A DNA stretch of 54,482 bases from Bacilli bacterium (GCA_017441065.1 JAFSAI010000008.1:1-54482), one strand, 5' to 3'; counted from the stretch's first letter, positions 4,171-51,636 are shown. The notes: generated by a model from the letters alone, not told the origin. Program-made: numbers and translations.

Positions 4171-4240
4171 TTTTTTAAAGAAATTTTAACTAAAAAAAAG
4201 GAAAACAGGGTATTGGTGACGAATATTAATAGTGAAGGGA
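4171..4240 (+). repeat. Upstream module shared with the DUF1016 gene, copy A
   Basis: This stretch in front of the bacteriocin operon aligns with 34404-34472 in front of the DUF1016 gene at roughly 80 percent identity. The longest shared parts include AATATTAATAGTGAA. It may be a common promoter/leader or a recombination arm; no clean -35/-10 pair is shared by both copies. Confidence 0.6.
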
Positions 4241-4248
4241 GGAAAAAT

Positions 4249-6303
4249 ATGAAAAATTTTAAACCTGTTATACAAAGTGATTTAAAGGATTGTGGTGTAT
4301 GTTCTATGCAGTGGATTATTAAATATTATGGAGGTTTTATTTCTTTGGAAAAATTAAGAGAAGAAACCTTAACTGATATTAATGGAACTAGTGCATATCA
4401 TATTGTTAATGCTTTTAAAAAGTGGGGATTTGATTCTCAAGGGGTTTTGGAGCATGATATAACTAGTAATAAATTAAGATATCCTTTAATTGCTCATTTA
4501 GTTATGGAAAATGGTTTAGAACATTTTGTTGTAGTTAAAGAAGTATTGAAAGATACAATATATTTAATGGATCCAGGTATCGGAAATACAAAAATGACTA
4601 TTACAAAGTTTAATAAATTATTTACAGGAAATATTATTGAAGTTTATCCAAGAGATGCAATTATAAAAATGGACCAAGAGTTATCAGTTAGTGATTTATT
4701 TTTTAAGATAATAAAAAAGGAAAAGTTTCTCATTACTAAAATTATAATTACTAGCATTTTATGGACAATTTTATTGATTGTAAGTAGTTACTATTTGAAA
4801 CTTGGTAGTAATTTAATAAATGAAGATAGCAACTTAATCAAATATTTAGTAATAGTATTTGCTATAGTTACTGGTTTAAAAGTTTTTGTTTTATATATTC
4901 GTGAATACTACGAAAATCATTTAAGTAATTTGGTTGATGTATATATTTATCCGGAATTTATAAGACACTTATTTTTTCTTCCTTTAAAGAATGTCAGAAG
5001 TAGAACAACTGGAGAAATTGTAACAAGAGTAGGAGAACTTGCTAATATAAAGAGTTTATTTTCAGATATTTTTGTTTCAGTTTTTCTAGATTCTATGATG
5101 ATGTTTATTTCTATAATAATTTTATACATGATAAATAAAGAGTTATTTTTAATCTTAGTAATATTTTTAGTTATATATATTATTTTGGGTTTAATTATAA
5201 GTAAAATTATGTATAAGAAAGTTTTAGAAAATATAAATTATCAAACTGATTTTAATAGTGTTTTAGTTGAGTCTATTGATATGTTTGAAAGTATTAAAAA
5301 TTTAAATGTTTTTAAAGTAATATTAAGAAAAATAGAAGATGTATTATCTAAATATTTACTTAATAATTATGAATTTAGTAGTTTTTATAATTTATCTAAT
5401 TTAGGAAAAGATTTTATTTTAGAATGTTCTTTCTTTATTATAAATTCCTATGGATTATGGTGTGTAATAAATGGAAATTTAGAAATAATTGATTTATTTA
5501 CATTTAACATAATACTTTCATATTGTATTGATCCTGTGAAAAATATGATTAACTTGTTACCAAAATTCAATTATGTTAGAGCGTCATTTTCAAAAATTAC
5601 AGAATTTATAAATATTGAAGAAGAAAAAGTTTTAGCTAAAGTAAGTGAAATGAAAGGAGATATTATTTTTAATAAAGTTAGTTATTCTTATAATAATTAT
5701 GATTACATATTTAATAATCTAAATTTTAGAATTAAAGAAGGAAGCCACGTTTTATTAAATGGACCATCAGGCTGTGGAAAAAGTACTGTTTGTAAAATCC
5801 TTTATAAAGAAAATATTATTAATAATGGTGAAGTTTTTATTGGTAATGATAATATTAAAGACTTATCCATTAGTACAATAAGAAATAATATTTTATATGT
5901 ATCACAAAATGAAGAATTATTTACGGGTACTATTAAAGAAAATATTTTAATAGGTAGAGAAGTAGATGATAATTTGTTTAAAGCCATTTGTAAAATATGC
6001 AGAATTGATGAAATTGTTAATAAAAAAGGATTTCGATATGATTCTTTAATTGAAACTTCTGCAAAAAATATTTCAGGAGGTGAAAAACAAAGAATAATTT
6101 TAGCAAGAGGGTTGCTTAAGAATACTAATATCATTATTTTAGATGAAGCTTTGTCTGAAGTGGATCAAAAATTAGAAAGTGAAATTATTAAAGATATAAG
6201 AAAATATTTTAAATTAAAAACGATTATTTATATTTCACATAAAAATCAAACAAATAATTTTGAATGTATATTAGATTTAGGAGAACAAAATGAATTATTT
6301 TAA
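4249..6303 (+). CDS. Peptidase-containing ABC exporter for double-glycine peptides
   Basis: A 684-residue bacteriocin-type ABC transporter that cuts GG leaders and exports the mature peptide. The N-terminal C39 peptidase has Q9, the catalytic Cys of DCGVCSMQ (C15), the His of EHFVVVKEV and the Asp of MDPGIG. A six-helix membrane domain follows (about 150-450). The ATPase has Walker A GPSGCGKST (about 504), signature ISGGEKQR (about 608) and Walker B IIILDEAL. The ATG at 4249 follows GGGAGG; an upstream TTG at 4213 would also stay open but has no ribosome binding site. It overlaps the accessory gene by 14 bp and leads an operon ending with two GG peptides. Confidence 0.92.
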   Translation: MKNFKPVIQSDLKDCGVCSMQWIIKYYGGFISLEKLREETLTDINGTSAYHIVNAFKKWGFDSQGVLEHDITSNKLRYPLIAHLVMENGLEHFVVVKEVLKDTIYLMDPGIGNTKMTITKFNKLFTGNIIEVYPRDAIIKMDQELSVSDLFFKIIKKEKFLITKIIITSILWTILLIVSSYYLKLGSNLINEDSNLIKYLVIVFAIVTGLKVFVLYIREYYENHLSNLVDVYIYPEFIRHLFFLPLKNVRSRTTGEIVTRVGELANIKSLFSDIFVSVFLDSMMMFISIIILYMINKELFLILVIFLVIYIILGLIISKIMYKKVLENINYQTDFNSVLVESIDMFESIKNLNVFKVILRKIEDVLSKYLLNNYEFSSFYNLSNLGKDFILECSFFIINSYGLWCVINGNLEIIDLFTFNIILSYCIDPVKNMINLLPKFNYVRASFSKITEFINIEEEKVLAKVSEMKGDIIFNKVSYSYNNYDYIFNNLNFRIKEGSHVLLNGPSGCGKSTVCKILYKENIINNGEVFIGNDNIKDLSISTIRNNILYVSQNEELFTGTIKENILIGREVDDNLFKAICKICRIDEIVNKKGFRYDSLIETSAKNISGGEKQRIILARGLLKNTNIIILDEALSEVDQKLESEIIKDIRKYFKLKTIIYISHKNQTNNFECILDLGEQNELF

Positions 6304-6703
6304 AATTAACTATAATAGATTAGAAAACTTATCTCAAATAAATTTTTATAAATTAGTATTTTCATTAATTATAATCATTATTGTTTTGATATTTATTTCA
6401 TGTATTATGTATACATATAATTCAATTAATTTATACGGTTATTATAATGAAGGTATTTTGCATATAAAAATAAATAATAAACTCTCTGATAAAATAAAAA
6501 AAGAAAAATATCTTATGTTTAATAATTTAAAAACTTCATATAAGATTGAAAGTTTTGGTGAGTATGAAATTATAGATAATGAAATTTATCAAAATTTAAG
6601 TTTAAAACTAGAAGAGGATTTTATAAATAACGAAGTAGGTACTGTTAAAATTAATTATGATAAAAAAAGAGTTATAAAATATGTTTTAGATTTATTTAAG
6701 TAG
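6290..6703 (+). CDS. Short accessory membrane protein of the peptide export operon
   Basis: This 137-residue protein begins inside the exporter gene (14-bp overlap). A short cytoplasmic N-terminus leads to one hydrophobic segment (about 22-43, LVFSLIIIIIVLIFISCIM) and a small lysine- and asparagine-rich domain. By position it replaces the HlyD/MesE-type accessory protein of such operons, but it is about a third of the usual length and has no lipoyl or coiled-coil region. It could instead be the immunity protein, for which there is no other candidate. The ORF is clear; the role is inferred. Confidence 0.75.
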   Translation: MNYFKINYNRLENLSQINFYKLVFSLIIIIIVLIFISCIMYTYNSINLYGYYNEGILHIKINNKLSDKIKKEKYLMFNNLKTSYKIESFGEYEIIDNEIYQNLSLKLEEDFINNEVGTVKINYDKKRVIKYVLDLFK

Positions 6704-6719
6704 AGGAGGTAATAGATAA

Positions 6720-6860
6720 ATGATATTAAATAATGAAGAAATGTTAGAAGTAAAAGGTGGTGCCCTAAAGTTTGGAATACTTGCTGGTATCATTGGTGGA
6801 GCTATTGTGTTTGTAGTTGGAGTTATAGACGGATTGTTAAATCCTAGAAAGTGTAATTAG
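6720..6860 (+). CDS. Double-glycine leader peptide 1 (class IIb bacteriocin-like)
   Basis: A 46-residue peptide preceded by GAGGAGG. The leader MILNNEEMLEVKGG fits the L-x-x-x-E-L-x-x-I-x-GG pattern cut by C39 peptidases. The mature part (about 32 residues) begins ALKFGILAGIIGG and is glycine-rich and hydrophobic, with overlapping GxxxG motifs (G19, G23, G27). It ends in a basic tail, NPRKCN, with a single Cys. GxxxG motifs are typical of paired class IIb bacteriocins. It lies 16 nt after the accessory gene and 9 nt before a second such peptide. Confidence 0.85.
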   Translation: MILNNEEMLEVKGGALKFGILAGIIGGAIVFVVGVIDGLLNPRKCN

Positions 6861-6869
6861 GAGGTGTTT

Positions 6870-7031
6870 ATGTTAACAAATGATGAATTAATTAATATTA
6901 GAGGTGGAGGTATCACTGCAACTTTATTAAATTCTATTTCTAGATTAGTAGAAACATTACTTAATTTAGGACAAATTGTTGGATCATCAATAAGACGTTC
7001 AGTATCTAAAAAAGTTTGTAAAATAAGTTAA
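6870..7031 (+). CDS. Double-glycine leader peptide 2 (class IIb bacteriocin-like)
   Basis: A 53-residue peptide with the leader MLTNDELINIRGG and a predicted mature part of about 40 residues starting GITATLL. It is an amphipathic helix with one GxxxG (G34-QIV-G38) and a basic C-terminus (SIRRSVSKKVCKIS) that again holds a single Cys. A GAGGTG site precedes the ATG. The two peptides differ in sequence but share leader, GxxxG and lone C-terminal Cys, suggesting two partners of one agent, possibly linked by a disulfide (speculative). No immunity gene follows; the rpsU promoter begins 30 nt downstream. Confidence 0.85.
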   Translation: MLTNDELINIRGGGITATLLNSISRLVETLLNLGQIVGSSIRRSVSKKVCKIS

Positions 7032-7061: not shown

Positions 7062-7090
7062 TTGTCAAATGGCATGTTCGGTGGTATAAT
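7062..7090 (+). promoter_or_regulatory. Promoter of rpsU-yqeY
   Basis: TTGTCA (7062-7067), a 17-nt spacer and TATAAT (7085-7090) make a near-consensus SigA promoter. Confidence 0.88.
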
Positions 7091-7121: not shown

Positions 7122-7307
7122 ATGACAAAGGTTGTAGTACAAAATGGTAATATTGACGGCGCTTTAAAGAAATTTAAAGTTAAAGTTGCTAGAAGCGGTG
7201 TCCCTTCAGAACTTAAAAAGAAAAAATTCTACTCTAAACCAGGAGTTGAAAGAAGACTTAAGAAAGAAGAAGGCATTAAAAATTCTCACAAAAGAAATCA
7301 TAACTAA
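7122..7307 (+). CDS. rpsU: Ribosomal protein bS21
   Basis: This 61-residue basic protein (MTKVVVQNGNIDGALKKFK) belongs to the small ribosomal subunit, where it acts near the anti-Shine-Dalgarno end of 16S rRNA. The ATG at 7122 follows GGGAGGG; a TTG at 7050 lies upstream of the promoter and cannot be the start. The rpsU-yqeY order is common in Firmicutes. An 11-nt gap leads to yqeY. Confidence 0.96.
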   Translation: MTKVVVQNGNIDGALKKFKVKVARSGVPSELKKKKFYSKPGVERRLKKEEGIKNSHKRNHN

Positions 7308-7787: not shown

Positions 7788-8045
7788 ATGATGAAAAATT
7801 TACATTTTAGAGAAAACTTTAAAAATTTTTTATTTGATTTAGAAGATTTCATAACAATTTATGAAAATCATTTGCATGTATTTAATTATAAAAAATTAAA
7901 CAAATTGAGTGAATCAGAAATAGTTTTAAGTTTTAATAAAATGTTAGTAACAATAAATGGAGTTAATTTAAAAATAAAACAAATGACTAAGCAAGAACTA
8001 CTAATTAATGGAAGTATTTTGAAAGTAGAGTTTTCTTATGAATAG
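7788..8045 (+). CDS. yqfC: YqfC/YabP-family protein
   Basis: An 85-residue protein of the YabP/YqfC fold, with the pattern ITIYENHLHVFNYKKL, LVTINGVNLKIKQMTKQELLI and IL-x-VEF. In spore formers YqfC is made in the mother cell with YqfD. Either of two adjacent ATG codons could be the start. No ribosome binding site is visible, and a TATAAT-like box lies only about 5 nt upstream, so the message may be nearly leaderless. It overlaps yqfD by 8 bp. Confidence 0.8.
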   Translation: MMKNLHFRENFKNFLFDLEDFITIYENHLHVFNYKKLNKLSESEIVLSFNKMLVTINGVNLKIKQMTKQELLINGSILKVEFSYE

Positions 8046-9204
8046 AGAGAAAATTTTATGGATAAAGATTGATACAGAAAACTATTATAGACTTTTAGTA
8101 AAACTAAATGATATTGGAATTAATATGTATGATAATAAGAAGTTAAAAGATTCTATATTAATAAAAACCACAATGTCAGATTATAAAAAAATAAAAAAGT
8201 ATTTAATTAGTTATAAAGTATCAATAAATAGTAATTCAGGAATATCTAAAATAAAAGAAATTGTAAATAAATATATTGTTTTTTCTTGCAGTGTAATATT
8301 AGGAATAATTTTGTTATTTATTGTAAATAATCTTATATTAAAAGTTGATGTTAAAAGTCCTAATAAGAATATTCAAAATTTGTTAATAACAGAGTTAGAT
8401 AAATATGGATTAGGTACACTGAAATTCAAAAAAAGTCATAAACAGGTAGAGGTTATTGTTAATAATATACTAGATAATAATAAAGAAACATTAGAGTGGC
8501 TAGAAGTTAAATATGATGGATTAATTATGATTGTTAATGTTACAGAAAAAACGAAAACTGAAAGTAGTGAAACTTATAATAATTGTAATATTATTGCTTC
8601 TTCTGATGCTAAAATTAGTAGTTTAAATATTTATAGAGGAGTTCCTTTAAAAGAAATAAATGATTATGTACTTAAAGGAGATGTAATATTAAGTGGAAGT
8701 ATAGTTCATAATGAAGAAGTAAAAAATACTGTTTGTGCTGCTGGTGAAATATATGGTGAAGTGTGGTATAAAGTAAAAGTGGAAATACCATTTAAAGAGA
8801 CTTATATAAATTATACGGGAAAAAACAGATATAACTTAAGTATTAAAGTAAATGATAATAAATATCAAATTTTAAAAAGTAGAATAAAAAATAAAAAAGA
8901 AGATGAAATTAATTTATATAAATTAAATGATTTTGAAATAAATTTAGTTAAAGAAAAAGAGTATACTACGAAAGTAAAAAAATTAAGCGAAGAAGAGGCT
9001 TATAATAAAGGGATAAATACGGCTTTAGAAAAGGTGAAATTAAAACTTTTAGATAATGAAGAAATATTACTGAAAAAAGTTTTGAAAAAAGAAGTAAATG
9101 ATAGTACAATATATTTAGAAATATTTATTGTAACAAAAGAGAATATAGGAGAGTTGCAAGTGGTATCGGAGGAAATTAATTATGGTGTCGAATCTAATAC
9201 ATAA
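8038..9204 (+). CDS. yqfD: YqfD-family sporulation-type protein
   Basis: The 388-residue protein has the YqfD layout: a small N-terminal domain, one membrane segment (about 82-102, IVFSCSVILGIILLFIVNN), then a large extracytoplasmic domain with the conserved region EVIVNNILDNN-...-VNVTEKT and ASSDAKISSLNIYRGVP. YqfD is needed for sporulation in Bacillus through an unknown mechanism. Its retention with YqfC and a SpoIIIAH-like protein, but no other sporulation gene in this window, is notable. It overlaps yqfC and the VanZ-like gene. Confidence 0.88.
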   Translation: MNREKILWIKIDTENYYRLLVKLNDIGINMYDNKKLKDSILIKTTMSDYKKIKKYLISYKVSINSNSGISKIKEIVNKYIVFSCSVILGIILLFIVNNLILKVDVKSPNKNIQNLLITELDKYGLGTLKFKKSHKQVEVIVNNILDNNKETLEWLEVKYDGLIMIVNVTEKTKTESSETYNNCNIIASSDAKISSLNIYRGVPLKEINDYVLKGDVILSGSIVHNEEVKNTVCAAGEIYGEVWYKVKVEIPFKETYINYTGKNRYNLSIKVNDNKYQILKSRIKNKKEDEINLYKLNDFEINLVKEKEYTTKVKKLSEEEAYNKGINTALEKVKLKLLDNEEILLKKVLKKEVNDSTIYLEIFIVTKENIGELQVVSEEINYGVESNT

Positions 9205-32691: not shown

Positions 32692-32721
32692 ATAAACGTT
32701 TTATAAACGTTTATTTTTTTT
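32692..32721 (+). terminator. Terminator after polC
   Basis: ATAAACGTT (32692-32700) pairs with AACGTTTAT (32706-32714), followed by a long T run. Confidence 0.88.
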
Positions 32722-32752
32722 GAATTTATTTATAATAATAAAAGGTGATTAT

Positions 32753-33511
32753 ATGAATTATCAAACTGCTATATCTTTTGGACTTGTTCATATTCCCGTC
32801 ATTATGAATTCTGCTATAAGAAATAATGATATATCTTTTAATATGTTACATAAAAAATGTGGTGAAAAATTAGAATATATAAGATATTGTCCGCATTGTA
32901 AAACTAAAGTAAAAAGTGAAGAAATAGAAAAAGGATATGAATATACAGATGATAATTATATTACTTTTACAGATAGTGATTTTGATAAACTTAAAAGTGA
33001 TAATGATAAAGTAATAGAAATAATTTCTTTTGTTGATATCAATGAAATAGATCCAGTTTATTATGATAAAAGTTATACTTTAACATCAAATAAGAGCACT
33101 AAAGCATTTAATTTATTTAAAGAAGCATTAAGGAAAAGTAAAAAAGTAGCAATAGCAAAAACTTATATGAGAAATAAAGCTTATTATGTTGTAATTAGAT
33201 TTGGATATGAAAATATTATAATGGATACACTTTATTATGAAGAAGAAATAAAATTACAAAAAGAAAAAATAAAAAAAGAATTTAATGAAAAAGAGTTAAA
33301 GACTGCGATGGATTTGATTTCAGCAATGAGTGATGAATTTAAACCAGAAGAATATGTTGATGAATATCAAACTAGACTTAGAAAAGCTATTGATAAAAAG
33401 ATAAATGGTAAAGAAATAAAACCATATAAGAAGAAAAAACAAAAAAGTATTAGTGATTTGATGACTGCACTAGAAGAATCGTTGAAGGAACAAAAAAATG
33501 GAAAAAAGTAG
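32753..33511 (+). CDS. ku: Ku protein (non-homologous end joining)
   Basis: The 252-residue homodimeric Ku binds DNA ends and recruits the ligase. Characteristic regions are MNYQTAISFGLVHIPVIMNS, LHKKCGEKLEYIRYCPHCK, EEIEKGYEY and TDSDFDKL; a lysine-rich C-terminal tail (KPYKKKKQKS) follows. GGTGAT precedes the ATG at 32753; the earlier ATG at 32720 lies in the polC terminator. It overlaps the ligase gene by 14 bp. Confidence 0.94.
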   Translation: MNYQTAISFGLVHIPVIMNSAIRNNDISFNMLHKKCGEKLEYIRYCPHCKTKVKSEEIEKGYEYTDDNYITFTDSDFDKLKSDNDKVIEIISFVDINEIDPVYYDKSYTLTSNKSTKAFNLFKEALRKSKKVAIAKTYMRNKAYYVVIRFGYENIIMDTLYYEEEIKLQKEKIKKEFNEKELKTAMDLISAMSDEFKPEEYVDEYQTRLRKAIDKKINGKEIKPYKKKKQKSISDLMTALEESLKEQKNGKK

Positions 33512-34388
33512 ATTTTTGAAATTAAAGCCAATGTTGCTTCATGAAATATTTAAACCGTTTAATAGTAAAAATTATATTTTTGAAATTAAATTTGATGGTA
33601 TAAGAGCATTAATTTATATTGATAAAGGTAATATAATAATTAAAAGTAGAAATAACATTATTTTAAATGATACTTATCCAGAATTATTAAGTATTAAAGA
33701 TATAAGTGATGATACTTGTGTATTTGATGGAGAAATAGTTTTGTTTGATGATGGAAAGCCAAATTTTTCAAAATTACAAGAAAGAACAAGATTAAAAAAT
33801 AAACATCGTATAGAAGAATTTAGCCAAAATAATCCAGTTACATTTGTGTGCTTTGATGTTTTATATAAAAATAAAGATTTAACTAATTTATCTTTGATAG
33901 AAAGAAAAGAAATATTAAATAAATTCAAAGATACAAATAATTTTATAAAGACTAAATATTTTGAAGAAGAGGGTAATGAATTATTTAAACTAATAAAAAA
34001 GGAAAAGTTAGAGGGAATAATAGCTAAAGAAAAGAGTAGTAAATATAATTATGGATTAAGAACTAAAGAATGGATTAAAATTAAAAATTTTAGAGAAGAA
34101 GAATTTTATATTGCTGGTTTTATAAAAATAAAAAGTGAAAATGTAGTAAGTGCATTACTTTGTGAAAAGAAGAACAATAAATATTATTTTGTTGGCAAAG
34201 TATTATTTAGTCATAATAATAAAGATTATGAAAAAGTTATAAATTCTAAACCGATTAAAAATACTATAGAAAACTGTGATGAAAAAGCAATATTTATTAA
34301 ACCATGTTATAAATTAAAAATTAATTATATGGAGCGAACTAAAAATAATATGTTAAGGCAGCCATTTATTAAGCAAGATAATGAATAA
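33498..34388 (+). CDS. ligD: ATP-dependent DNA ligase (LigD ligase-domain type)
   Basis: A 296-residue ligase with the adenylation motif EIKFDGIRA (Lys31), motif III FDGEIVLFDD, motif IV EGIIAKEK and motif V EWIKIKNF, plus a C-terminal OB domain. It has neither the polymerase nor the phosphoesterase domain found in LigD of Bacillus or mycobacteria. Together with Ku it forms a minimal two-gene NHEJ system; gap filling would have to come from elsewhere. Confidence 0.92.
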   Translation: MEKSRFLKLKPMLLHEIFKPFNSKNYIFEIKFDGIRALIYIDKGNIIIKSRNNIILNDTYPELLSIKDISDDTCVFDGEIVLFDDGKPNFSKLQERTRLKNKHRIEEFSQNNPVTFVCFDVLYKNKDLTNLSLIERKEILNKFKDTNNFIKTKYFEEEGNELFKLIKKEKLEGIIAKEKSSKYNYGLRTKEWIKIKNFREEEFYIAGFIKIKSENVVSALLCEKKNNKYYFVGKVLFSHNNKDYEKVINSKPIKNTIENCDEKAIFIKPCYKLKINYMERTKNNMLRQPFIKQDNE

Positions 34389-45316: not shown

Positions 45317-45817
45317 ATGGAAAAAATAAAAAAAGTTTTAGAAGAAAATAGAGTATTATTAGTTTTAGCAATTATCTTAGTAATATGTTTAGTTGTTTTT
45401 GGGATAGTTGCAATAACATATTTTTATGGTTCTAGTGATAATGTTTATGGAAATAGATTAGATAAAACAAAAGAAGTCCCTTTAAACAAAAAACTTTTAA
45501 GTGATATTGAAAGTACACTTGAATCAAATGAATCAGTTAAGGAAACTAAGGCTACATTAAAAGGCAAGATTGTTTATGTAAATATTGAATTTGTAGATGC
45601 AACTAAAATGGATGATGCTAAAAAAGTAGCAGAAGAAGTAATTACTTTATTTAATGAAGATGAATTAGAAGTGTATGATATTCAATTTACAATAACTTCG
45701 TTATCAACTGCAGATTTCAAAGGATATACATTAATGGGGGCAAGAAATTCTAGTGGTAATGGTACGTTAGTATGGAACAATTACAATATAGAAGAAGAAA
45801 GTAGTGCTGAAGAGTAG
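45317..45817 (+). CDS. Single-pass membrane protein of unknown function
   Basis: 166 residues: one membrane segment (about 13-36, VLLVLAIILVICLVVFGIVA) then an extracytoplasmic domain with alternating charged strands (ATLKGKIVYVNIEFVDATKM, DDAKKVAEEVI) and an acidic tail. The domain reads like a small alpha/beta sandwich of the Asp23 or lipoprotein kind, but no family is certain. It abuts the sensor gene and shares its promoter, so it may be part of the same envelope-sensing unit. Confidence 0.72.
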   Translation: MEKIKKVLEENRVLLVLAIILVICLVVFGIVAITYFYGSSDNVYGNRLDKTKEVPLNKKLLSDIESTLESNESVKETKATLKGKIVYVNIEFVDATKMDDAKKVAEEVITLFNEDELEVYDIQFTITSLSTADFKGYTLMGARNSSGNGTLVWNNYNIEEESSAEE

Positions 45818-45818
45818 T

Positions 45819-47828
45819 ATGAAAAAGAAAAGATGGATTATATCACTGATAGCTATTATATTAGTTTTATTAGTAGGCGGTATAATAACATTTAATATAT
45901 TAAATGATGAAAATAAATTAACAAGTGAAGAAAGAACATGGATAAATGATAACATTAATAATGTTCAAAATATTTATGTAGTAAAAGATGAAAATGCATT
46001 TAGTAAAGATGGTAGTGGAGTTTTCTATTCATTTTTAAATGATTTTAGTGAAGAATATGGAATTAATCTTAATATAATAACTTTTGATGGTTCTAGTGCA
46101 CCATCAAGTAACAATTTAAATTATACAAAAGAATTAAAAGATAATTCTAAAGTTTTCTTTACAGATCATTATGTATTAGTAGGAAAAAATAATGAAGTAT
46201 TTAATAGTAATAAAGATTTAGAAAATAAAACTATTGGAGTACTTAATAGTGAACTTGAATATATAAAAAGTTATTTAAAAGAAGTTAATATTAATTATAA
46301 TGGTTATGATACAATTGATGATTTATTTAAATCAATTACAACAAATAGTAGTTATATAATTTTACCGAGAATAAAGTATATAGATAAAATATTATCTAAT
46401 AACTTAGAAATTGTATATCATTTAAGTGATATAAATAATTATTATGTTTTAAATAGTACTGGAGATATGTTAGGAAGTATTTTAAATAAATATTATACTA
46501 AATGGAGTAAATATATTGATTCAAATCTAAAGAGTGAAGAATTTAATATTTTTACTAAATCTTTAGGAGTAAGTGAAACTGAAATTGATAAATTATTAAG
46601 TATAGATTATAGATATGGTTTTATAAATAATTCTCCATATGAAGTAATTATGAGTGGTAATTATGGTGGAATTATTGCTGAATATTTACAAGAATTTAGT
46701 GAATTTTCAGGAGTATATTTTGATATAACTAAATATAAGAATATTGATAAATTAGTAAATGCAATTAATAGAGATAAAGTGGATTTATATTTTGAATTTA
46801 ATGATAGTATAGAATCAAATTATACAGAAACTACTCATGGTATTAATAGTAGTCTTTCAATTCTTACTACAAAAGATAGTGAAAAAATGATTAATTCAAT
46901 ATATGGATTACTTGGAGAAACAGTTTATGTTGAAAACAATAGTAATTTAATGAAATATTTAAAAAGTATTGGAAACATAAATATTGAAACTTATGATACT
47001 AGTAAAGAATTATTTAAATTAAATAAAGAAGATGTAATTATAGTAATGGATACTTATATTTATGAATATTATGGAGATACTAAATTAAGTAATTATGTTA
47101 GTAAATTTGATACATTTATAAATAATAAATATTCATTTAGAGTAAGTAAAGAATATAGTACATTATATAAATTATTAGATAAATATATTAGTTATTTAGA
47201 TAATAGTACAATGATTAATCAAGGTATTAATAGTCATGTAGAAACAGTAAAAAGCGGAAGTGTTTTAAATAATATTGCTAAATATTTTATTGTTAGTATA
47301 GTTGCTATATTATTAATTTCTTTAATAGTATATAAAAATTCTAAGAGAATAAGAATAGCAAAAAGAATAAGAAATACAGATAAAATTAGATTTATTGATG
47401 AACTTACTTGTTTAAAAAATAGAGCATATTTAAGCGATTTTATTAAAACATGGAGTAATAATACTATTTATCCACAAACTATAATTGTAATGGATTTAAA
47501 TAGATTACAAGAAATTAATGATAAGCATGGAGTTTTAGAAGGGGATAAACAAATTCAAGCTGCAGCTAATGCTTTAATTAAAACACAACTTGATAATAGT
47601 GATTTAATGCGTAGTGATGGTAATGAATTTGTAATTTACACAGTGGGATATAGTCAAAAACAAGTTATAAATTATATTCATAAATTAAATAAAGAATTAA
47701 AGAAATTACCATATAATTATGGTGCTGAATTTGGTTATAGTATTATTGAAAATAATTTAAAAACTGTTGAAGATGCTTTAAATGAAGCAGTTGAAGATAT
47801 GAAAAATAAAAAAGCGAGTGTAAAATAG
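45819..47828 (+). CDS. Dual solute-binding-domain protein with degenerate GGDEF
   Basis: A 669-residue membrane protein. After an N-terminal anchor come two solute-binding (SBP family 3-like) domains (about 25-230 and 255-475), a second membrane segment (about 488-508), and a GGDEF domain starting FIDELTCLKNRAYL. The active-site loop is RSDGNEF in place of RxGGDEF, so diguanylate cyclase activity is unlikely. Such proteins detect ligands outside and signal by domain contact. The ATG at 45819 is used instead of 45804, which lies within the previous gene. It ends where the BrkB gene starts. Confidence 0.85.
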   Translation: MKKKRWIISLIAIILVLLVGGIITFNILNDENKLTSEERTWINDNINNVQNIYVVKDENAFSKDGSGVFYSFLNDFSEEYGINLNIITFDGSSAPSSNNLNYTKELKDNSKVFFTDHYVLVGKNNEVFNSNKDLENKTIGVLNSELEYIKSYLKEVNINYNGYDTIDDLFKSITTNSSYIILPRIKYIDKILSNNLEIVYHLSDINNYYVLNSTGDMLGSILNKYYTKWSKYIDSNLKSEEFNIFTKSLGVSETEIDKLLSIDYRYGFINNSPYEVIMSGNYGGIIAEYLQEFSEFSGVYFDITKYKNIDKLVNAINRDKVDLYFEFNDSIESNYTETTHGINSSLSILTTKDSEKMINSIYGLLGETVYVENNSNLMKYLKSIGNINIETYDTSKELFKLNKEDVIIVMDTYIYEYYGDTKLSNYVSKFDTFINNKYSFRVSKEYSTLYKLLDKYISYLDNSTMINQGINSHVETVKSGSVLNNIAKYFIVSIVAILLISLIVYKNSKRIRIAKRIRNTDKIRFIDELTCLKNRAYLSDFIKTWSNNTIYPQTIIVMDLNRLQEINDKHGVLEGDKQIQAAANALIKTQLDNSDLMRSDGNEFVIYTVGYSQKQVINYIHKLNKELKKLPYNYGAEFGYSIIENNLKTVEDALNEAVEDMKNKKASVK

Positions 47829-49182: not shown

Positions 49183-50529
49183 ATGTCTAAATATAAAAAA
49201 CAAATAATATTATTTCTTTTAATTATAGAATTATGTTCGGTATATTTAACTTTTTCGTCTTTTAACAATAAAGATATAACAAAGATCAAAGAAGTTAGTA
49301 AGGTAGATAAAGAAATGTTTTCAATGTATGTAATTAATGAAACTACAGGTAAATATGAAGAAGTTACAGATAGTGAATATTGGCCAAGTGGTAATTATAA
49401 ATTGAATACAACAAAATCAAGTTGTGTAGATACAAAAGGTAAAAGTGTATCAAGTGATGTATTAAATTATAAGGGTGATAAGTTAACTGTATCTAGTAAC
49501 CAAACTTTATTCTGTTATTTATACTTTGATATAAAAGCAGATATCACTATTAATGTATCAACAGATGGTGTTACAGGAGTATTACCAACAACAGGAGGAT
49601 ATAAAAATACTTTGAGTTGTAATGATTCAACATATAGTTGGAATCCAATATATCAAAGAATAGAGTTTAGTGGTGTATTAAGTGATGAAGTTAAATGTAA
49701 TTTGGATTATACAAAAGATACAGAAACACATACTACTTTAATTAGTGAAGTAGAAAGTAAAGCTCAAACAAACGAAAATGGATATAGATATTCTGGAAAA
49801 CAACCGGATAACTGGGTATGGTTTAATGGCGAAAAATGGAGAATTATTGGAAGTATACCAACAACATTAGCATATGGTACAAAAACTAATTTAGTAAAAA
49901 TAATAAGAAACGAATCAATTGGGGGACTTGCATTTAATAGTGTAAATTCAAATCCTGAATGGGGTAACAACACTCTTTATAAATTGCTTAATACAAAATA
50001 TTATGGTAAAGTCGATGCCACTGGAGCAAGTCCGTGTTTAGGATATAGTACAGGTGGTTATGCATTATGTAATTATGAAGAAATAGGAATATCAAGTAGT
50101 GGTGACGATTATTATGGAAGAATGATAAAAGATGTATATTGGAATGTTGGAACAGTAAATAATACATCAACAAAAATATCGGTTTCGTATACATCTGAAT
50201 CAGGAACAAAATCTTCGATAACAGGAAAAATAGGATTAATGAGTGCAAGTGATTACGGATATGCTACTAGTGGAATAACATATAGTAGTGTTGGATTGTC
50301 ATCATTATCAAGTTATGAACAAAACAATTGGTTGTATGGGCAAGGAGATGAGTGGACATTAACTCCAATTAACTCATCTAGTGTTATGTATGCTTCGGAC
50401 GATGGAAATGTTTACTATTTTACGTTAGATTCAGGAATTGTTGTTAGACCTGTTGTTTGTCTAGATTCTTCAGTATATATAATAAGTGGAAATGGGACTG
50501 AAGTAAATCCATACCAAATAGGGATGTAA
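49183..50529 (+). CDS. Surface protein A of a tandem pair (variable loop before VRP motif)
   Basis: A 448-residue protein with a signal anchor (about 6-23), the KVDKEMFSMYV module also seen in the protein at 66, a Cys-bearing beta region, and a C-terminal domain beginning NGYRYSGKQPDNWVWFNGEK. The last part, NEWTLTP-like, has a loop (about 390-420) then VRPVVCLDSSVYIISGNGT and NPYQI. From 50067 to 50350 it is nearly identical in DNA to the next gene, but the loop is wholly different. The fold is probably DUF6273/FGE-sulfatase-like. Role unknown; adhesin or ligand-binding surface protein suggested. Confidence 0.82.
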   Translation: MSKYKKQIILFLLIIELCSVYLTFSSFNNKDITKIKEVSKVDKEMFSMYVINETTGKYEEVTDSEYWPSGNYKLNTTKSSCVDTKGKSVSSDVLNYKGDKLTVSSNQTLFCYLYFDIKADITINVSTDGVTGVLPTTGGYKNTLSCNDSTYSWNPIYQRIEFSGVLSDEVKCNLDYTKDTETHTTLISEVESKAQTNENGYRYSGKQPDNWVWFNGEKWRIIGSIPTTLAYGTKTNLVKIIRNESIGGLAFNSVNSNPEWGNNTLYKLLNTKYYGKVDATGASPCLGYSTGGYALCNYEEIGISSSGDDYYGRMIKDVYWNVGTVNNTSTKISVSYTSESGTKSSITGKIGLMSASDYGYATSGITYSSVGLSSLSSYEQNNWLYGQGDEWTLTPINSSSVMYASDDGNVYYFTLDSGIVVRPVVCLDSSVYIISGNGTEVNPYQIGM

Positions 50530-50553
50530 GAATTTAATTTTATGGAGATAAAA

Positions 50554-51636
50554 ATGAAAAACAAAAAAATCGTAGTAATTATTATAATAATATTGTCATT
50601 AATAACAATACTATCAATAACTAAAAATAACAAAAAATATATAATGCGAGATGGAATGATGTTAGCGCTAAGTTTAGATGGAAGTTCAATAACATCATTT
50701 CCAGAAAGAGGAGAATATGAAGTGTCTGTAGACTGTGGAGATACAGCTGTGGGAAAATGGCTAGCAGAAGAATGGAATTTAGCTATAGAAGATATAACCG
50801 AAAATATAAAATGTAATATAAATTTTTCAACTAATCCTTTTATCTTAAAAAACAAAGTAGAAAGTATAAATACAACAAATAATAATGGATATAGATATTC
50901 AGGCAAACAACCGAATAACTGGATATGGTTTAATAGAGAAAAGTGGAGAATTATTGGAAGTGTTCCTGTAACGTTGGCTAATGGTACACAAACCCATTTA
51001 GTTAAAATAATTAGAAGTGAATCAATTGGAGGATTAATTTTTGATAGTTCTGCCACAAATTTAAAATGGGGAAGTAATACATTATATACATTGTTAAATA
51101 CAAAATATTATGGTAAAGTCGATGCTACTGGTACAAATCCTTGCTTAGGGTATCAAACGACTGGATATCCACTATGCAATTACGAAGAAATAGGAATATC
51201 AAGTAGTGGTGATGATTATTATGGAAGAATGATAAAAGATGTATATTGGAATGTCGGAGCAGTAAGTGATACATCAACAAAAATATCGGTTTTATATACA
51301 TCTGAATCAGAAACAAAATCTTCGATAACAGGAAAAATAGGATTAATGAGTGCAAGTGATTACGGATATGCTACTAGCAGAATAACATATAGTAGTGTTG
51401 AATTGTCATCATTATCAAGTTATGAACAAAATAATTGGTTATATGGGCAAGGAAATGAGTGGACACTTACCCCGAGCGGCTCATATGCTGCGTTTAATTT
51501 ACACTATGATGGTAAGATAGGCAATGCTCTCGTATTTTATGGGCTTGCAGTTCGTCCAGTTGTATATCTAAACTCTTCAGTATATATAGTAAGTGGAGAT
51601 GGAACGGAAGGCAATCCGTATCAAATAGCAATGTAA
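50554..51636 (+). CDS. Surface protein B of a tandem pair
   Basis: 360 residues with a membrane anchor (about 5-20) and a shortened N-terminal region lacking the KVDKEMF module. The C-terminal domain from NGYRYSGKQPNNWIWFNREK onward follows the preceding protein closely up to EWTLTP, then shows a different loop (SGSYAAFNLHYDGKIGN and on) of the same length before VRPVVYL. Codons in this loop (CCG AGC GGC, CTC) are richer in GC than the rest. The ATG at 50554 follows GGAG; ATG 50542 has no site. Confidence 0.82.
   Translation: MKNKKIVVIIIIILSLITILSITKNNKKYIMRDGMMLALSLDGSSITSFPERGEYEVSVDCGDTAVGKWLAEEWNLAIEDITENIKCNINFSTNPFILKNKVESINTTNNNGYRYSGKQPNNWIWFNREKWRIIGSVPVTLANGTQTHLVKIIRSESIGGLIFDSSATNLKWGSNTLYTLLNTKYYGKVDATGTNPCLGYQTTGYPLCNYEEIGISSSGDDYYGRMIKDVYWNVGAVSDTSTKISVLYTSESETKSSITGKIGLMSASDYGYATSRITYSSVELSSLSSYEQNNWLYGQGNEWTLTPSGSYAAFNLHYDGKIGNALVFYGLAVRPVVYLNSSVYIVSGDGTEGNPYQIAM

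Follow-up and report, generated by a model that had tools for sequence, protein, structure and literature searches.

Organisation of the operon

The window analysed here, a stretch of 54,482 nucleotides (nt) from a Bacilli bacterium (GCA_017441065.1, JAFSAI010000008.1:1-54482) and contig 37 of a genome of 1.21 Mb at 95% completeness, carries at 4249-7031 a single polycistron for a C39-peptidase ATP-binding cassette (ABC) exporter, an accessory protein and two short peptides, pep1 and pep2, with double-glycine (GG) leaders. Neighbouring genes overlap or lie 9-16 nt apart and have good Shine-Dalgarno (SD) motifs, and for this reason we regard the four as one transcription-translation unit.

4249..6303, + strand: C39-peptidase ABC exporter (PCAT-type), 684 residues, assigned from Pfam and motifs; SD 4235-4242
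6290..6703, + strand: accessory (adaptor) protein, putative mini-HlyD, 137 residues; overlaps the end of the exporter gene by 14 nt
6720..6860, + strand: pep1 precursor; SD 6704-6710; leader 6720-6761 (14 residues), mature part 6762-6857 (32 residues)
6870..7031, + strand: pep2 precursor; leader 6870-6908 (13 residues), mature part 6909-7028 (40 residues)

The SD of pep2 (6859-6866) overlaps the stop codon of pep1. A first-pass annotation of this DNA had placed a C39 ABC exporter, an accessory protein and two GG-leader peptides in one unit, and both the coordinates and the Pfam matches agree with that description.

Judged by its domains and motifs, the exporter is a complete protein of the C39-ABC type. 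Its Pfam matches are all far above cut-off (Peptidase_C39 2.5e-30, ABC_membrane 6.5e-29, ABC_tran 1.3e-26), and the sequence contains the DCG of the catalytic Cys, HF...DP, a Walker A GPSGCGKST, the signature ISGGEKQ and a Walker B ILDEALS. Removal of the leader and export of the peptide are the established job of C39 exporters in general. The match to TIGR01193 (361.8 bits) does not reach the cut-off of 523.85. The architecture is also that of the Mbov_0121 family of peptidase-domain ABC transporters of mycoplasmas (NF045998), but the score of 306.2 bits misses the 500-bit equivalog cut-off and is lower than that for TIGR01193. In the plasmid search, the top-ranked relative is encoded by Lactobacillus salivarius pMP118 (31.7% identity over 98%), where it adjoins Blp-family class II bacteriocin genes.

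Conservation and inheritance

The exporter is single-copy in 36 of the 38 genomes of the window's genus and in all 16 of the good ones (at least 90% complete and clean). Wherever the downstream sequence is readable in the genus (35 loci), the exporter is followed by the accessory gene, pep1 and pep2 in that order, usually then by rpsU and yqeY, a conservation of gene order that is far more than chance. The parts of the operon have diverged to different degrees, with mean pairwise identities in the genus of 0.56-0.64 for the exporter, 0.41 for the accessory protein, 0.41 for mature pep1, 0.38 for mature pep2 and 0.64-0.66 for the leaders, compared to 0.71 for yqeY and 0.89 for rpsU. Pairwise distances of the operon parts within the genus nevertheless track those of the chromosomal neighbour yqeY (r 0.59-0.78), and from this correlation we conclude that the operon belongs to the core of the genus and has descended vertically, not as a mobile cassette. 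The family as a whole has it as a core locus in like form.

Nearly all family genomes, 183 of 193 (and 141 of 148 genera), have a C39 exporter or domain, as a rule in one copy. With the accessory profile, which sets a lower bound, the system is detected in 167 of the order's 288 genomes and in 54 of its 102 genera, all of them in one family. A class-wide search with the accessory protein outside the family gave four marginal partial matches, which were rejected, and nothing convincing; the accessory matches L091 and L092 are false positives. The operon had first been described as novel-looking and as lying in a Mollicutes-like relative. It is real, but it is no strain-level oddity, being core across genus and family.

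PurC (SAICAR synthetase) is absent from all 38 genus genomes and present in all 14 controls, and on this marker the genus consists of purine auxotrophs. The absence of PurC has been reported for RF39 (PMC13155120). Small genomes, the missing PurC and one dominant family per order, all as in that report (PMC13155120), lead us to suggest that the family probably corresponds to RF39/UBA660, the genome-reduced, uncultured gut Bacilli.

The two peptides

The pep1 precursor is composed of the leader MILNNEEMLEVKGG and the mature part ALKFGILAGIIGGAIVFVVGVIDGLLNPRKCN, and that of pep2 of MLTNDELINIRGG and GITATLLNSISRLVETLLNLGQIVGSSIRRSVSKKVCKIS. Mature pep1 (3238.9 Da) is hydrophobic, has GVIDG as its GxxxG motif and ends ...NPRKCN, while mature pep2 (4256.0 Da) is cationic and reads GQIVG...SIRRSVSKKVCKIS. 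The GxxxG, basic tail and lone Cys that the first-pass annotation had noticed in each mature peptide can all be read in the window and are conserved in relatives. In 32 genus sequences of each peptide, the GG of the leader, both GxxxG glycines and the Cys (in pep1, located in the terminal region) are invariant, despite a mean identity of just 38-41% between mature parts.

The nearest curated models are those of class IIb bacteriocins, TIGR03949 (lactobin A/cerein 7B) and NF038034 (lactococcin G-beta). The window pep1 scores 18.2 bits against TIGR03949 (cut-off 21.5) and 18.7 bits against PF10439 (cut-off 27.1), and the window pep2 has no match above cut-off in the curated families. More widely, pep1 gives weak class II bacteriocin matches and pep2 weak class II or IIb matches in relatives. 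The pep1 of three genus relatives (L004, L006 and L007) passes the TIGR03949 cut-off. Against PDB sequences, the peptides show leader matches only, to CtA, the substrate of PCAT1. A literature search that covered neither most subscription journals nor the complete IIBacFinder atlas, where these peptides may be listed, returned no paper on bacteriocins of this family or on disulfide-linked two-peptide bacteriocins.

Reading 98 further family loci brought the total to 133, from which 131 peptide pairs were parsed. A script located an adjacent GG-leader pair in 127 of the 133; among the other six, L158 ends at a contig edge and L082 and L210 are parser misses. GxxxG is present in pep2 of all 131 pairs (23% in shuffled sequences) and in pep1 of 120 (45% in shuffled sequences), the pep1 exceptions being mostly AxxxG or SxxxG. 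Exactly one Cys is found in 124 of the 131 pep1 and 118 of the 131 pep2 sequences. As nearly all peptides have one Cys, this residue can only be bonded to another molecule, modified or left as a free thiol.

Going through the exceptions by eye, we counted a Cys after GxxxG in both partners of 120 pairs, in neither partner of 11 and in one partner only of none (n = 131). With a cruder criterion, a Cys within 12 residues of the C-terminus, the figures become 120 both, 3 neither and 8 pep1 only (Fisher P = 0.0005); these eight are second or sole pairs of genus g46, in which pep1 is truncated and its Cys lies inside GxxCG, together with close variants. The tail Cys has been lost in genera g46, g97 and g8, that is, in at least three lineages. 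The co-retention of the two cysteines supports, but does not prove, a disulfide-linked heterodimer of pep1 and pep2; the paired single cysteines predict that such a covalent species would have a mass of about 7493 Da.

Some loci encode additional peptides. In genus g46 (L075, L140, L141 and L144), two complete pep1-pep2 pairs lie in tandem, one with tail cysteines and one without, and these offer natural material on the role of the Cys. In genus g97 (L085, L152, L153, L156, L160, L162, L163 and L166), pep1 is preceded by an additional GG-leader peptide, and a prepilin-like open reading frame (ORF) follows pep2. One member of the window's genus has a third GG peptide ahead of pep1 (L012:3965-4105), ending ...KAPRCP.

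The accessory protein

The accessory protein has one transmembrane (TM) helix (residues 19-39) followed by a small β domain. The first-pass annotation put it at about a third of the usual length, and its 137 residues compare with 384 for AbpD, a comparable adaptor. It has no Pfam match above cut-off, none of 29 accessory members has a Pfam HlyD match, comparison with PDB sequences gave nothing credible and a phage search found no relative. AlphaFold2 models have a predicted local distance difference test (pLDDT) score of 84-90, and of 90 when 126 relatives are included. In these, the TM helix is followed by strands 41-53 and 56-62, helix 63-71, strands 74-77, 80-95, 98-107 and 115-127, and helix 128-136. 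Besides the TM helix, the model has just short terminal helices; the lipoyl domain and α-hairpin are absent, and 137 residues leave no room for them.

Foldseek searches with two models returned β domains of the MacA, Spr0693 and HerA type weakly among mixed matches, none at E ≤ 0.001, and we treat these as supportive only. For hhalign, we used an HlyD profile of nine bacteriocin adaptors (LcnD/PlnH-type) of lactic acid bacteria. The accessory protein has no match to full-length AbpD or to the full-length HlyD profile (probability 3.7), and the C-terminal part alone gave 6.1 and shuffled columns at most 1.5. Only a spliced profile, from which the lipoyl and coiled-coil regions had been excised, aligned with it (probability 71.5, pairwise E 3.6e-5, 118 columns). 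The N-terminal TM helix, the flanking β strand and the C-terminal β domain of the HlyD/LcnD/PlnH secretion accessory proteins (PF13437) are the parts that align; the lipoyl domain and coiled-coil hairpin of those proteins are missing here. As the splice was chosen after the fold was known, we regard the support as moderate for an HlyD-type adaptor reduced to a membrane anchor and a β domain. Such a minimal adaptor would mark the indispensable part of HlyD-type accessories.

Immunity

There is no immunity-type ORF in the window operon, and none that is credible in the 35 genus loci. The absence of an ordinary immunity gene, already remarked upon in the first-pass annotation, is true of the window and its genus but confined to some lineages, and a candidate exists elsewhere. 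Related genera have, in 36 loci, an ORF coupled to pep2 for a single-TM protein of 36-63 residues that has a basic start and ends as xxGxxxG(T)xxR. It usually begins 7-16 nt before the pep2 stop codon, in a few cases 23-26 nt before it, and in one just after it. The end of this tethered protein resembles pep2 tails, scoring 25.1 against 14.3 (sd 3.4) for shuffled sequences in a test of 45 ORFs from outside the genus; these included the prepilin-like third ORFs of g97, which are excluded from the set of 36 and could only lower the score. Run on the window's genus, a profile of the tethered protein recovers pep2 itself in about 14 genomes, including the window (6936-7007). A relocated immunity gene in the genus was considered and rejected, since this search returned pep2 plus noise.

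We suggest that the 36-63-residue protein is probably the immunity protein, acting as a tethered decoy of pep2 that captures pep1. Its size and predicted topology match those of CbnZ, the immunity protein of carnobacteriocin XY, which has 42 residues and one TM helix oriented N-in/C-out (PMC6957408), but it ends in a pep2-like GxxxG(T)xxR helix, and the window's genus has no such protein. A decoy of one half of the toxin would be a simple immunity mechanism. For two-peptide bacteriocins, the mechanism of immunity has so far been hard to establish.

Surroundings of the operon

Two features lie directly downstream of the peptides.

7062..7090, + strand: promoter-like site TTGTCA-17-TATAAT with extended -10, from a consensus scan only; directly 3' of pep2
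7122-7307: rpsU, which follows the operon in most loci

No terminator was found. The promoter-like site is a strong one, and presumably the peptide unit ends there and the rpsU-yqeY unit begins.

Sporulation-type genes surround the operon in this 1.2 Mb genome (3626-4132 on the - strand, 7788-8045 and 8038-9204; SpoIIIAH-like, YabP and YqfD). Elsewhere in the window, a Ku protein adjoins an ATP-dependent DNA ligase (32720-34388), which gives this strongly reduced genome a two-gene set for end joining, and 45804-47828 encodes a protein that has a long extracellular part and, at its C-terminus, a GGDEF domain. Large proteins that are secreted or at the surface are encoded at 66-1253, 49183-50529 and 50542-51636; the first two have no Pfam match, and the proteins share motifs (YRYSGKQPNNW, SGDDYYGRMI between the last two). 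In several relatives (L007, L008, L014, L017, L020 and L033), genes for similar proteins immediately precede that of the exporter.

Discussion

Class IIb bacteriocins are defined by GxxxG or GxxxG-like motifs in both mature peptides and by a cluster of at least five genes that includes an immunity gene (PMC6957408). The locus has adjacent GG-leader genes, GxxxG in both peptides and a dedicated C39 exporter with an accessory protein, but it has no dedicated immunity gene, and for that reason we call it a class IIb variant rather than file it as a member. With lactococcin G and lactobin A/cerein 7B (TIGR03949 and NF038034), it shares the adjacent GG peptides, the double GxxxG, the C39 exporter with an HlyD-type accessory and the lack of modification. 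It differs from them in having a Cys in each peptide, the exporter first in the gene order, an accessory protein of about a third of the length, a family-wide chromosomal core locus and no immunity gene in the genus. The two-peptide Blp-family locus of pMP118, which we take to be that of ABP-118, also encodes two small GG peptides with Cys near each C-terminus. However, these have two Cys per peptide, so that an intramolecular bond is possible, and that locus is plasmid-borne, has a full-size HlyD (384 residues) and includes an induction peptide and GHKL/LytTR regulators.

We consider it fairly probable that the operon encodes a divergent class IIb-like two-peptide bacteriocin that is a core trait of these bacteria and possibly acts as a disulfide-linked heterodimer. 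The first-pass reading, a two-peptide GG-leader bacteriocin, is supported, and an unmodified pair of this kind remains the best explanation, all the sequence elements that it named being conserved. Cleavage, pairing, the disulfide, the membrane target, killing and immunity are what we infer from the sequences. Both peptides would be made as precursors with GG leaders, which the C39 exporter would cut off as it moves the peptides out of the cell, aided by the reduced HlyD-type adaptor. Outside, hydrophobic pep1 and cationic pep2 would pair as helices through their GxxxG faces, a mode of pairing established for class IIb; a disulfide between the lone C-terminal cysteines may lock them together, and the pair would permeabilise the membranes of competing, probably related, bacteria. 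In many related genera, the membrane protein whose outer end mimics pep2 probably gives immunity by capturing pep1.

Several observations count against this interpretation. The window's own two peptides fall below every curated family cut-off, the genus has no immunity gene, and the tethered protein of the sister genera is as similar to non-self pep2 (24.1) as to its own (25.1), which lends no support to cognate specificity. Bacteriocin loci are usually patchy, strain-specific and mobile, unlike this core and chromosomal one. As for the heterodimer, the count with no discordant pair hinges on the definition of "tail", the losses of Cys are few events in related genomes that are not independent, a DsbA-like oxidase was not found in the 16 good genus genomes searched, and the gut is reducing, hence a stable disulfide is not assured.

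Alternatively, the pair may descend from a class IIb bacteriocin but no longer kill, having been domesticated as a housekeeping or community factor (in adhesion, the envelope, biofilm or a host-directed role). This would explain both the core status and why the genus has lost the immunity gene. The locus is single-copy with a vertical signal, there is no immunity-like ORF in the genus, and the mature peptides show no obvious hypervariability, evolving at about the rate of the accessory protein. However, GxxxG in both partners and a cationic pep2 fit membrane attack, and many sister genera still encode an immunity-type small TM protein coupled to pep2. We regard domestication as unlikely.

That one or both peptides are pheromones, exported signals sensed by relatives, we think improbable. 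GG-leader export by a C39 ABC protein is common to pheromones, and 1 of 32 pep1 members matches ComC weakly, but no histidine kinase, response regulator or receptor lies close to the operon, either here or in the relatives' loci that were read, unlike in pMP118. Moreover, strictly paired peptides with GxxxG and Cys would be unusual for signals, and the mature parts are only about 38-41% identical in the genus. A toxin retained at the surface and killing on contact is very doubtful. The model for it is Caulobacter CdzC/CdzD, two glycine-zipper peptides with ABC export and a small TM immunity protein (PMC5380434). The window system shares the two small glycine-zipper peptides and type I-like ABC export and, in its sister genera, the small TM protein. 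The Cdz peptides, however, have extended GxxxGxxxG zippers and form cell-surface aggregates at a Gram-negative outer membrane, whereas here there is a single conserved GxxxG, pep2 is charged and an outer membrane is not expected; cdz loci are also often horizontally acquired, and core status is not shown for them. A two-component lantibiotic or other modified peptide system is scarcely credible, as single weak matches of the leader region, to profiles of lichenicidin A2 or cytolysin, are set against the lack of any modification enzyme or lanthionine synthetase in the operon or near the loci read and mostly one Cys per peptide.

The absence of PurC from all the genus genomes, set against its presence in all the controls, and the same absence in RF39 (PMC13155120) prompt a broader proposal, which we offer as speculative and on balance quite unlikely. 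An order-level lineage of genome-reduced, nucleotide-auxotrophic gut bacteria would depend on a single core toxin, a disulfide heterodimer of two peptides against which most lineages are protected by decoy immunity, serving the harvest of nucleotides from opened neighbours more than rivalry between strains. If the operon does encode a divergent class IIb-like bacteriocin, then a single-copy system of the bacteriocin type, near-universal in a large family, would be among the very few secreted weapons or signals that these cells have kept, and it would give a direct handle on how uncultured, genome-reduced bacteria of the animal gut live among their neighbours.

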